Positions 10,511 through 49,483 of a DNA stretch of 64,000 nucleotides are shown here, piece by piece. Source of the stretch: Roseiflexus sp. RS-1 (GTDB lineage Bacteria > Chloroflexota > Chloroflexia > Chloroflexales > Roseiflexaceae). The stretch spans positions 1,922,001 to 1,986,000 of the forward strand of contig NC_009523.1 of NCBI RefSeq assembly GCF_000016665.1, read 5' to 3'. Position 1 is the stretch's first letter. Every line of letters begins with the position of its first letter. Position numbers and translations under genes: made by a program. The notes beneath the pieces were generated by a model. The model was not told the origin of the DNA and did not search any database. It worked only from the letters and a program-made list of their open reading frames with translations.

Positions 10511-10608
10511 TTATCGATTATCAGCTATTGGCTATCGGCTATCGGCTATCAGCTATCGGCTATCGGCTATCGGCTATCAGCTATCAGCTATCAGCTATCG
10601 GCTATCGC
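10511..10608. repeat. Heptanucleotide array 1 (CTATCGG/CTATCAG), about 14 units
   Basis: About fourteen contiguous 7-bp units, mostly CTATCGG or CTATCAG, with degenerate units at the ptrB side. The array overlaps the end of the PfkB-family gene: its last codons and stop TAG are made of repeat units. Confidence 0.9.
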
Positions 10609-29099: not shown

Positions 29100-29475
29100 A
29101 GCCTTATATAGTGTTTGAAGAAATAATCCGGTATAGCCCGCGCAGGTGGGCTTCGCCTTGTATAGCCAAGGGCTTATGAACTTTGAAGAAATAATCCGAT
29201 GTAGCCCGCACAGGCGGGCTTCGCCTTGTATAGCCGAGGGCGTATGGTCGTTGAACAATTACTCCGCTATAGCCCGCGCAGGCGGGCTTCGCATTCCATA
29301 GCCGAGGGCGTATGGTCGTTGAGTAATTATTCCGCTATAGCCCGCGCAGGCGGGCTTCGCATTCCATAGCCGAGGGCTTCAGCCCGACGGCTAGCGCGGT
29401 AGAGCGGATTTATTTCTCAATCTCCATGAGCCCGACGGCTCATACGGTAGAGCGGATTTATTTCTCAATCTCCAT
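29100..29475 (+). repeat. Tandem array of repeat family A (68-bp period, four units)
   Basis: The AGCCCGCGCAGGCGGGCT hairpin recurs at 29134, 29203, 29271 and 29339, a spacing of 68-69 bp, each with AATAATCCG before and TAGCCGAGGG after. Two copies of the family right end (GGATTTATTTCTCAATCTCCAT) close the array at 29405-29475. No coding capacity is evident in the whole 28925-29563 gap. Confidence 0.85.
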
Positions 29476-29563: not shown

Positions 29564-30945
29564 TTGAAAGGGGGGGGATTTAGGGCGATTTCAGGCATTG
29601 GGACGGGTCATAGATATGCATGGTTACGCTGTCACCTATTTTGGGCAAGGGCTCCGGGCGCAACCACAAGCGGACCCAGCAGCGCCCTTGCGCCAGCAAC
29701 CAGCGCAGGCGCCGACCTGCCCCCCGCCGGAGCAGGCTGATCACCCGCTGCGCCGTGCCGCTCCAGCGACGGCGCGGCGGCGCGCCCGTCGTCGGTGGCG
29801 CCCGGCGCAAGCGACCGGGCGGAACCCCCTGCGGTTCTGCATCGTCGATCCGCGTGCCGACGGCCACCGTCCACAGCGTGACCGTCGCCACCACCAGATA
29901 CTGCCAGGCGACGGCATCCGGGTCCGTCACCTGACCGCGTTGCCAGTCCCAGCCCATCGATGTACTTTGGCGGAAGCCCGCCTCGTCCCAACTGCGCAGG
30001 GCATACCACGCGGCATCCACCTGCGCGGCTGGACGCTCGCCGAGCGGCGCCCACGGTTCCGCATGGCCTGCACCCCACGCCACTGCCAGCGTGCCCGCAA
30101 TCCGCTTGGGTGCGTGCGTGAAGGCGACCCCCACGCCCACCCATCCATGCCCCGGTCCGGGCGCCAGGCGCAGCACCGACTGGCGCACCTGACCGGTCGG
30201 CGCGAAGGTCGACGTGGTACGCACCCGCATGATGGGATGGAACTGCTGCGACCGGATGGCGTGCCACAGCCGGGGGCTCCACACCCCCTGATCCGCCAGC
30301 GTGAGGACCTCCTGGTCGAGCGGCAGCGCGCTGCGGGCCCAGCGCAGCATCCGCTCCCAGTGCGGTTCCCACGCACCCGGTTGGTTCGCCGGGACGATCA
30401 CCCAGGCGACCGGCAGGGCGGCGCCCCGATAGAGGACGCTCATGCGCAGCAGAACGACGTCATCGCGCCGATGGGAGGCATCCAGCCCGAGCACCAGCGG
30501 TCCGCCGGTCCAGTGCGCGCGAATCCAGCGGAGCAGGTCGGCGCCGCACGCCAGCGGACGGACCACCGGTGGCGCACCCGCTGCGGGTGGGTCGGCGGTG
30601 TCAATGCGATGGGCCGGGGCGGCGATCCAGGCGTCCCAGGCGTCCGCCAGGGTGGCGGCGCGGGCGATCCCGGCAGTGGCGAGCGCTGGCGCCAGCGCGG
30701 GACGATTGGCGCTCCCCGCCAAGAGGGCGCCCAAGACCCAGCGGGCCAGGGCGCGGCGCCGGTGACGCGACAAGCGCGGGAAGAGGGTCTGGATCTGCTG
30801 CTGCAGCAACCGTTCTGTGGACGTGCGGGACATACCATCCTCCGTGTCTCGCGATCCTTCCATGATCATGCTACCGACGGATCGGCCCGTGCGTTCGGTG
30901 GAACGGAAACGGTTGACAATCTGCCTGCGAGTCCCCCCCTTTCAA
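29564..30945 (-). mobile_element. IS4-like insertion sequence, 1382 bp
   Basis: Ends are inverted: TTGAAAGGGGGGGGA at 29564 and the complement of ...TCCCCCCCTTTCAA ending at 30945. It is flanked by an 11-bp duplication, CCCCGTGTGGG (29553-29563) and CCCCTTGTGGG (30946-30956), with one mismatch. The size of the duplication fits the IS4 family. One transposase gene fills the element. The target is a family B repeat copy. Confidence 0.85.
29580..30833 (-). CDS. Transposase, IS4-like (DDE)
   Basis: About 417 residues. ATG 30833 is preferred because GGAGG sits five bases upstream; ATG 30869 is also in frame. DDE residues can be placed: Asp in VLGLDASHRRDD, Asp in LTLADQGVW, and Glu in the YREK-like segment RSWDEAGFRQ...GWDWQRG. 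The N-terminus is basic and helical for DNA binding. The C-terminal quarter is very Arg-rich. No frameshift or stop is visible, so it may still be active, although the mismatch in the target duplication suggests the insertion is not recent. Confidence 0.85.
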   Translation of the reverse strand: MSRTSTERLLQQQIQTLFPRLSRHRRRALARWVLGALLAGSANRPALAPALATAGIARAATLADAWDAWIAAPAHRIDTADPPAAGAPPVVRPLACGADLLRWIRAHWTGGPLVLGLDASHRRDDVVLLRMSVLYRGAALPVAWVIVPANQPGAWEPHWERMLRWARSALPLDQEVLTLADQGVWSPRLWHAIRSQQFHPIMRVRTTSTFAPTGQVRQSVLRLAPGPGHGWVGVGVAFTHAPKRIAGTLAVAWGAGHAEPWAPLGERPAAQVDAAWYALRSWDEAGFRQSTSMGWDWQRGQVTDPDAVAWQYLVVATVTLWTVAVGTRIDDAEPQGVPPGRLRRAPPTTGAPPRRRWSGTAQRVISLLRRGAGRRLRWLLAQGRCWVRLWLRPEPLPKIGDSVTMHIYDPSQCLKSP

Positions 30946-31108: not shown

Positions 31109-31276
31109 TCCTCAGTTCTCGATTCTCAGTTCTCAGTTCTCAGTTCTCGATTCTCAGTTCTCAGTTCTCGGTTCTCAGCCCTCGGTTCTCAGTTCTCGGT
31201 TCTTGGTTCTCAGTTCTCAGTTCTCGATTCTCAGTTCTCAGCCCTCGGTTCTCAGTTCCTGATTCCCAGTCCTCAT
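31109..31276. repeat. Heptanucleotide array 2 (TTCTCAG/TTCTCGG/TTCTCGA), about 24 units
   Basis: Twenty-four contiguous 7-bp units with variation mainly at the last two bases and occasional CC at the start. It ends five bases before the stop codon of the phosphatase gene. Confidence 0.9.
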
Positions 31277-32088: not shown

Positions 32089-32290
32089 AAGGGCATCAGG
32101 ACGCCCAGACTCCCCCTTCTCCCTTTGTAGGAGAAGGGGGCAGGGGAGATGCTCACAGGGGTGGATGTTCTGGCAAGCCCCTGCGTGCCATCTTCCGTTT
32201 CAGGCATCAGGACGCCCAGACTCCCCCTTCTCCCCTTGTGGGAGAAGGGGGTCGGGGGGATGAGGGGCAAAGGCGTACGGGCATAATCAA
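32089..32290 (-). repeat. Family B repeat, two copies in tandem
   Basis: A partial copy (32089-32150) followed by a full one (about 32152-32290), sharing GCATCAGGACGCCCAGACTC and CTTGTGGGAGAAGGGGGTCG. Together they fill the gap between the phosphatase and VOC-fusion genes. Confidence 0.8.
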
Positions 32291-32299
32291 GACATGTTC

Positions 32300-32869
32300 T
32301 CATTCCTGCAACTGATCGCGCTCGACGATTTCAATCTCGCGTCCATCGGGATCGCGCAGACTGAAAGTCCGACCATACGCTTTATCGACGATCGGTGCAC
32401 CCAGCAGGGGAATATTCCGCTCAACCAGGTAGAGGAGCACATCCTCCAGTGTTCCACGACAATTGAAGGAGAGGGTGATTGGTGGAGGAACGGCTTTTGT
32501 TCCCTGAAAAACGCTGCCGATGTCGCTATCAGAAGGTTCGTGAATGCCCAGCAGCATATCGCCCATACGCAGTTCAGCCCACTTGTGCTCACGATCCTCC
32601 ACTGCCACCTGAAAGCCGAGTCGCCGGTAAAAACCGAGCGCAGCATCGAAATCGCGCGTGACAATGATCGGCATGGGAGTGATCGGCAGCGAAGATGGTG
32701 GACGCTGATCTCGCGGAATAGCAGATCCTTCTTCCAACGCCCGGCGCAACGCCGTTTCAACCAGACTGGAAAGTGACACACCTCGCTCAATCGCAGCATG
32801 CTTGATGGCACGAACCAGCGATGGCGGCAGGTAGATATTGAACTGTTGCTTCTTCTCGTCGTTCATCAT
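32300..32869 (-). CDS. Ribbon-helix-helix / VOC (glyoxalase-fold) fusion protein
   Basis: A 189-residue protein. Residues 5-50 form a CopG/Arc-type ribbon-helix-helix DNA-binding domain (FNIYLPPSLVRAIKHAAIER then SLSSLVETALRRAL). Residues 65-185 form a vicinal oxygen chelate domain of the glyoxalase/bleomycin-resistance type (VTRDFDAALGFYRRLGF, RTFSLRDPDGREIEIVE). The pairing suggests a one-component regulator that binds DNA through the first part and a small molecule or metal through the second. GGAG precedes the ATG. Three 82-bp repeats with promoter and palindrome lie directly upstream, good candidates for its own operators. Confidence 0.88.
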   Translation of the reverse strand: MMNDEKKQQFNIYLPPSLVRAIKHAAIERGVSLSSLVETALRRALEEGSAIPRDQRPPSSLPITPMPIIVTRDFDAALGFYRRLGFQVAVEDREHKWAELRMGDMLLGIHEPSDSDIGSVFQGTKAVPPPITLSFNCRGTLEDVLLYLVERNIPLLGAPIVDKAYGRTFSLRDPDGREIEIVERDQLQE

Positions 32870-32880
32870 TGTCGCTCCAA

Positions 32881-33127
32881 AATGAAAAGGGGAAGGGGAA
32901 CAGTGACGTGTGCATAGAATGCTAGCATGCTAGTATATCTCAAAATGGCAGTGACCTCCCGCAATGAAAAGGGGAAGGGGAACAGTGACGTGTGCATAGA
33001 ATGCTAGCATGCTAGTATATCTCAAAATGGCAGTGACCTCCCGCAATGAAAAGGGGAAGGGGAACAGTCGATGTGTAAATAGGATGCTAGCATGCTAGTA
33101 TATCTCAAAATGGCAGTGACCTCCCGT
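32881..33127 (-). promoter_or_regulatory. Triple 82-bp repeat with embedded promoter and palindrome
   Basis: Units start at 32881, 32963 and 33045. Each holds ATGCTAGCATGCTAGTATATC (perfect palindrome ATGCTAGCAT at 32919-32928, 33001-33010 and 33084-33093). Read on the minus strand each unit has TTGAGA, a 17-base spacer containing the palindrome, and ATTCTA/TTCTAT, so the palindrome lies between -35 and -10, the classic repressor position. The third unit has a diverged stretch. Units end with CAGTGACCTCCCG, and AAATGACCTCCC recurs at 33164. Confidence 0.65.
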
Positions 33128-33300
33128 TCCCCGTTGTGGCATACTGGCATACGTTGAAACGGAAATGACCTCCCTGTCCTTTATCTTCGCCATTCCTCCT
33201 CAGATCAGAACTGCTGGTCTGCGTGCTGCGAGGAAGCAACGATACTACCCTCCCCAAGCGCGTATATGCTTCCAGACCGTCTGGCGCCTGGTGAAAAAGG

Positions 33301-49399: not shown

Positions 49400-49483
49400 G
49401 TTGAAGGTTGAAGGTTGAGGGTTGAAGGTTGAAGGTTGAAGGTTGAAGGTTGAAGGTTGAAGGTTGAAGGTTGAAGGTTGAAC
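49400..49483. repeat. Heptanucleotide array 4 (GTTGAAG), 12 units
   Basis: Twelve nearly perfect 7-bp units starting 11 bases after the stop of the amidase gene and ending ten bases before the -35 box of the next gene. The unit is the same as in array 3 (GGTTGAA on one strand). Confidence 0.9.

Follow-up and report, generated by a model that had tools for sequence, protein, structure and literature searches.

A ribbon-helix-helix (RHH)–VOC protein of Roseiflexus sp. RS-1, encoded in the stretch of 64,000 nucleotides analyzed here (the window), appears to be the one-polypeptide form of a widespread autoregulatory module. In the reading that we consider probable, the module represses itself through CTAG boxes, its VOC domain binds a small molecule by which repression is modulated, and the repeated units upstream of the gene arose by duplication. 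The palindrome within these units is very probably part of a repeated 8-bp box that forms the operator of the autorepressor, as judged from its conservation among related loci.

The fusion of a CopG-type DNA-binding domain to a glyoxalase-fold domain in one 189-residue protein, as described in the original prediction, was confirmed: the open reading frame was present, both domains scored above their Pfam cut-offs, and the fold was modelled (Table 1). The RHH_1 family (PF01402) was matched at residues 10-47 with 26.7 bits against a cut-off of 20.5, and the Glyoxalase family (PF00903) at residues 69-181 with 21.1 bits against 20.6, a marginal score that still places the domain among VOC proteins. 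An AlphaFold2 (ColabFold) model, for which ten fused homologues served as input, had a mean pLDDT of 78.4 and included the RHH helices at residues 16-29 and 33-47 as well as a VOC fold at approximately residues 67-184, with low confidence at residues 48-57 between the two parts. In the RHH strand QQFNIYLP, the residues Q9, N11, and Y13 were invariant in all ten sequences of the RHH-domain profile, named A1. The gene may start with the ATG at 32869 or with the next codon at 32866, the latter being the start in most homologues.

Table 1. Features of the RHH–VOC gene and its upstream region (window positions).
Feature	Position	Strand	Basis
RHH–VOC fusion gene, 189 aa	32300..32869	-	ORF list, Pfam
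RHH (CopG/Arc-type) DNA-binding domain, residues 8-47	32729..32848	-	Pfam, profile, model
Linker, residues about 48-66; modelled with low confidence, sequence differs among homologues	32672..32728	-	
VOC/glyoxalase-fold domain, residues about 67-186	32312..32671	-	Pfam, fold
GGAG, Shine-Dalgarno-like, outside the repeat	32875..32878	-	Read from sequence
Repeat unit 1, gene-proximal, putative promoter/operator	32881..32962	-	Repeat finders
Promoter-like hexamers of unit 1: TTGAGA (32938-32943), CATTCT (32916-32921), spacer 16	32916..32943	-	
Putative operator boxes of unit 1, CTAGCATGCTAG	32922..32933	.	
Repeat unit 2, identical to unit 1 (82/82)	32963..33044	-	Repeat finders
Putative operator boxes of unit 2, CTAGCATGCTAG	33004..33015	.	
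Repeat unit 3, 77/83 columns identical to unit 1 (93%)	33045..33127	-	Repeat finders
Putative operator boxes of unit 3, CTAGCATGCTAG	33087..33098	.	
Decayed fourth-unit fragment, ~36 bp, without intact CTAG boxes	about 33138..33174	-	Repeat finders

By sequence and fold, the VOC domain was nearest to the bleomycin-binding proteins, PluN2, the zorbamycin-binding ZbmA, and other VOC proteins, and the model matched VOC structures with E-values down to 5e-7. The relationship to the bleomycin-binding proteins was one of fold only, as the Ble/BLMT family of NCBIfam was matched with 25.6 bits against a cut-off of 210. In an alignment with 1f9z, neither the H5 nor the H74 position of the glyoxalase I metal histidines was occupied by histidine in the fused proteins, and an assignment as a glyoxalase enzyme was rejected on these grounds. 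Because these metal ligands are missing, a ligand-binding rather than a catalytic role is likely. The similarity to drug-binding proteins that lack the metal (for bleomycin, zorbamycin, and mitomycin) suggests that the VOC domain may be a small-molecule sensor. By analogy to NikR, sensing would be the simplest reason for a fusion to a DNA-binding domain. NikR similarly combines an RHH and a small-molecule domain in one polypeptide, but its partner is a nickel-binding ACT-type domain (PMC7055735), whereas the C-terminal domain found here is a VOC domain lacking the glyoxalase histidines, and the protein is not a member of the NikR family.

The palindrome ATGCTAGCAT occurred once in every unit, as originally described, and seven matches with at most one mismatch were found in the window against 1.8 expected. 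The real motif is wider than the palindrome, however, and consists of a tandem pair of CTAG boxes with an 8-bp period, reading ATGCTAGC-ATGCTAGT-AT in the units. The CTAG tetramer is rare, with 11 occurrences in the 64 kb, six of which are within the three units. Pattern searches of the 5.80-Mb single-contig genome identified 16 CTAG-N4-CTAG sites against 0.17 expected if the boxes were independent. The three units of the window are among them, as are two decayed promoter units (C1:306135-306460 and C1:1000659-1000840), each with a broken RHH coding sequence behind it (local alignments with z above 20), and a site at C1:3958605 that has its promoter part and first codons in common with the RHH–VOC unit. 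Judging by these remnants, the module was duplicated and then lost elsewhere in the Roseiflexus genome; one pseudogenized copy retained the RHH domain and lost the VOC frame. No recognizable RHH gene was found at C1:1729797, 3715245, 3854084, or 3979467. The first of these regions (C1:1729743-1729811; L024:2243-2311) contained two tandem units, each of ~50 bp and carrying the same CTAG boxes (ATGCTAGCATACCAG and ATGCTAGCATGCTAG), located ~150 bp upstream of an open reading frame that resembles an ABC-type solute-binding protein, and could be a second target or a relic.

Other repeats were also observed in the window. Downstream of the gene, two copies of a 60-bp palindrome (32092-32151 and 32203-32262) were 92% alike and read CCCCCTTCTCCC...GGGAGAAGGGGG; similar, REP-like sequences recurred elsewhere in the genome. 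Three short tandem arrays had a period of 7 bp or a multiple of it and were located at 10519-10607 (TATCGGC, 12.7 copies), 31111-31275 (CTCAGTT-type, with a period of 14-28), and 49400-49482 (GTTGAAG, 11.9 copies). In addition, about four 68-bp tandem repeats (29115-29377, 89% matches) adjoined a transposase-like open reading frame (29580-30869), of which a near copy was located at C1:3977500-3979300 (L028).

The association between the boxes and the gene was examined among 30 loci of this RHH subfamily with a fused or adjoining VOC domain, from Chloroflexota, Burkholderia, and Streptomycetaceae. The profile A1 was searched against 400 Chloroflexota genomes, where it had matches in 19, and the Burkholderia and Streptomycetaceae loci were obtained from plasmid records only. 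At 25 of 29 loci, the 150 bp preceding the start contained an exact CTAG-N4-CTAG, compared to 0.12 loci expected from dinucleotide shuffles. The combination of RHH domain and promoter model was partly chosen after the data were seen, except for one locus (L139), which was fetched after the rule was fixed; it encodes a fused protein, reads TTGACAACTAGGATACTAGTATGCTAGCATACTATCTATG, and passes. With this locus included, the exact pair was present at 26 of the 30 loci, so that the search for the palindrome upstream of other RHH–VOC genes recovered the box array in three phyla. At the four remaining loci (L057, L059, L069, and L077), the 8-bp register was kept with a one-base variant, such as CTAG-ATAG-CTAG. 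As several loci are close relatives, the independent cases number fewer than 30; the independent groups are the genus of the window, the families f4 and f24, two further Chloroflexota families, Burkholderia, and Streptomycetaceae. The locus of the window itself has an A1-type RHH domain, a fused VOC domain, and CTAG boxes in the 8-bp register before the start, the three features of the module. The pair was found at none of 11 other RHH_1 genes of the same genomes, nor at either of two weak A1 matches without a VOC domain (L074 and L075). This distribution supports, by comparison, the predicted self-regulation of the protein through the palindrome. By these counts and those of the window, an origin of the array by chance was rejected. 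At six other CTAG-N4-CTAG sites read in related genomes, no RHH-like gene was observed. Separately, in a genome of the same genus, four CTAG boxes in the 8-bp register (L132:1548-1575; G003:C72) directly followed what appears to be the last CRISPR repeat, GGATTGAAAC.

A consensus of ATGCTAG(C/T)AT was derived from 76 boxes, and the best promoter-like match overlapped the boxes at 26 of 29 loci. Many loci contained TTGAC(A/T) together with a second hexamer, TAGTAT, TAGCAT, or CATACT, themselves part of the box array. Because the boxes overlap the promoter core, the bound protein should hinder RNA polymerase and repress its own gene. No more than about 10 bp separate the boxes from the start codon in Burkholderia and Streptomycetaceae, and the message there may therefore be nearly leaderless.

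In MetJ, dimers are placed side by side on tandem 8-bp met boxes. Similarly, dimers of the RHH domain would bind adjoining CTAG boxes, the 8-bp period placing one dimer on each box, and the invariant Q9, N11, and Y13 would face the invariant CTAG. Bases are read by paired strands in RHH proteins (PMC3325190, PMC4803016), and tandem 7-bp repeats are known from omega (PMC4803016). At other loci, the predicted target of repression is the RHH–VOC operon, several of which end in a SAM methyltransferase gene, and the VOC domain probably binds a small molecule by which repression is altered. Binding, repression, ligand sensing, and an effect of the extra copies, if any, are what we infer from the comparison of sequences.

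The distribution of fused and split forms varied among taxa. A full-protein search of the genome contigs returned one relative, in a Roseiflexus MAG. The fusion also occurred elsewhere in the genus, in two genomes as such (G004 and G005), in one truncated (G003), and in one frameshifted (G001), as well as in family f24 and in family f4 (G053 and G396), where the homologue of G053 has an identity of 51%. In G001, the gene was frameshifted and partly deleted (L014/L021; G001:C99) while the operator was intact, suggesting that the module is dispensable, unless these are assembly errors. The adjacent-gene form was found in three Chloroflexota genomes (G378, G286, and G189), Burkholderia, and Streptomycetaceae. 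One of these, G378, encodes three split loci, where the partner at the third is of the Glyoxalase_3 type; at another locus (L071 in G331), the RHH gene was interrupted and no VOC domain was seen. In annotated records, a 'ribbon-helix-helix' or 'CopG family' regulator is followed by a 'VOC family protein', and in three of four annotated cases a class I SAM methyltransferase gene, which matches TIGR00027, comes next. No relatives were found in viral contigs or phage records. The VOC types of the fused and split forms are related (hhalign, 96.8%, E 2e-10), with the partner of the split operons being closest to TioX, ZbmA, and the mitomycin-binding protein. In the VOC tree, the two types are deeply split and the fused or split state requires at least two changes, suggesting that fusion or fission, or both, took place more than once.

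The VOC relatives also point to a reading without sensing, in which the RHH domain merely holds the protein level and the VOC domain is a sequestering or detoxifying payload whose dose is thereby set. This is a serious possibility, though we consider it somewhat less than probable. Most relatives of the domain are sequestering or resistance proteins, the VOC protein of the split operons could act alone, and some operons have added a methyltransferase. In contrast, a fusion holds the VOC domain at the operator, which would be odd for a mere payload, and fused forms occur in three Chloroflexota groups.

With regard to the upstream array, repeat finders recovered the three tandem units predicted directly before the gene, with lengths of 82, 82, and 83 bp. 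The promoter-like pair of boxes predicted for each unit was present as well, but the match was weak, and the TTGAGA-16-CATTCT pair of the units was absent from the results of a strict sigma-70 scan. In unit 1, the two hexamers overlap both CTAG boxes. As the GGAG and the start codon are outside the repeat, the upstream units would represent extra promoter/operator copies instead of complete expression units. The proposal of three tandem promoters as a layout was not upheld: every other homologue examined had a single block of boxes, and a recent duplication is likelier. A functional array, selected because three promoters or operators give stronger, cooperative autoregulation, would be consistent with the intact boxes and promoter-like hexamers in all three units, and with the further tandem pair of CTAG units at C1:1729743-1729811. 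It appears unlikely, however, since repeated units were absent from all homologues examined, and duplication and loss in the absence of selection, of which the sequence comparison gave no sign, would account for the identical copies and for the decay of the fourth fragment. With copies 1 and 2 identical, copy 3 diverging, and the fourth fragment decayed, the triple array looks like a recent, local tandem duplication of one promoter/operator and not a conserved design. The extra copies may provide more operators or a stronger promoter.

The small RHH gene in first position, the tightly linked second gene, the autoregulatory operator, and the occurrence on plasmids are also reminiscent of type II toxin–antitoxin systems, where the RHH protein would be an antitoxin and autorepressor, the VOC partner would tune repression, and the fused form would represent a pair that has been inactivated or neutralizes itself. 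We regard this as quite improbable: to our knowledge, no toxin has a VOC fold, and the fusion of a toxin to its antitoxin in several lineages is unlikely, while the pseudogenized copy that kept its RHH domain and lost the VOC frame is compatible with this reading but not telling. A known toxin–antitoxin or defence system was rejected, as neither the fused nor the split proteins had a PADLOC match. It is very improbable that the CTAG array is part of a structural or mobile repeat and lies upstream by coincidence. Units like it do occur at other places in the genome, some with no recognizable gene, but the array stands before the same gene in distant phyla and before that class only among the RHH genes tested, and two other units of the genome precede RHH relics.

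Compared to known systems, the module shares with the CopG/Arc/MetJ-type autorepressors (PF01402 and relatives) the RHH fold, the paired-strand reading, and an operator at its own promoter, and differs from them in its C-terminal VOC domain or VOC partner gene and in the CTAG box. Its closest VOC relatives by sequence and fold, Ble/BLMT, ZbmA, TioX, and the mitomycin-binding protein, function on their own in resistance or as carriers and have no DNA-binding domain. The same RHH subfamily includes PDB entry 9kkd ('Ribbon-helix-helix protein, CopG family', 60 aa; 89 bits and E 1.3e-24 to A1; strand QFNVYLP), which differs in being an RHH chain only. As its structure has been solved, the subfamily may be under study; no paper on the entry was found in the open-access literature. 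Neither a characterized RHH–VOC member nor, in the open-access literature (subscription papers being outside the scope), a description of RHH–VOC fusions or operons was found. The module, present across phyla, would be an autorepressor of the RHH type whose partner is unusual and whose operator is conserved. A bolder version, which we hold tentatively and at somewhat less than even chance, is that of an undescribed class of ligand-responsive repressors, fused or split and present in at least three phyla, whose drug-binding VOC partner gates the cooperative binding of RHH domains to the 8-bp CTAG array, a single module thereby sensing a natural product and also sequestering it.

Taken as a regulator family, RHH–VOC proteins come with a predicted operator and a predicted sensor domain, and their fused and split forms lend themselves to comparison. 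From the operator rule, by which CTAG recurs at 8-bp steps immediately ahead of RHH–VOC genes, targets can be predicted in further genomes. If the VOC domain gates DNA binding, the drug-binding VOC proteins, known mainly for resistance, would also be sensors and could help to identify their ligands or serve as biosensors.
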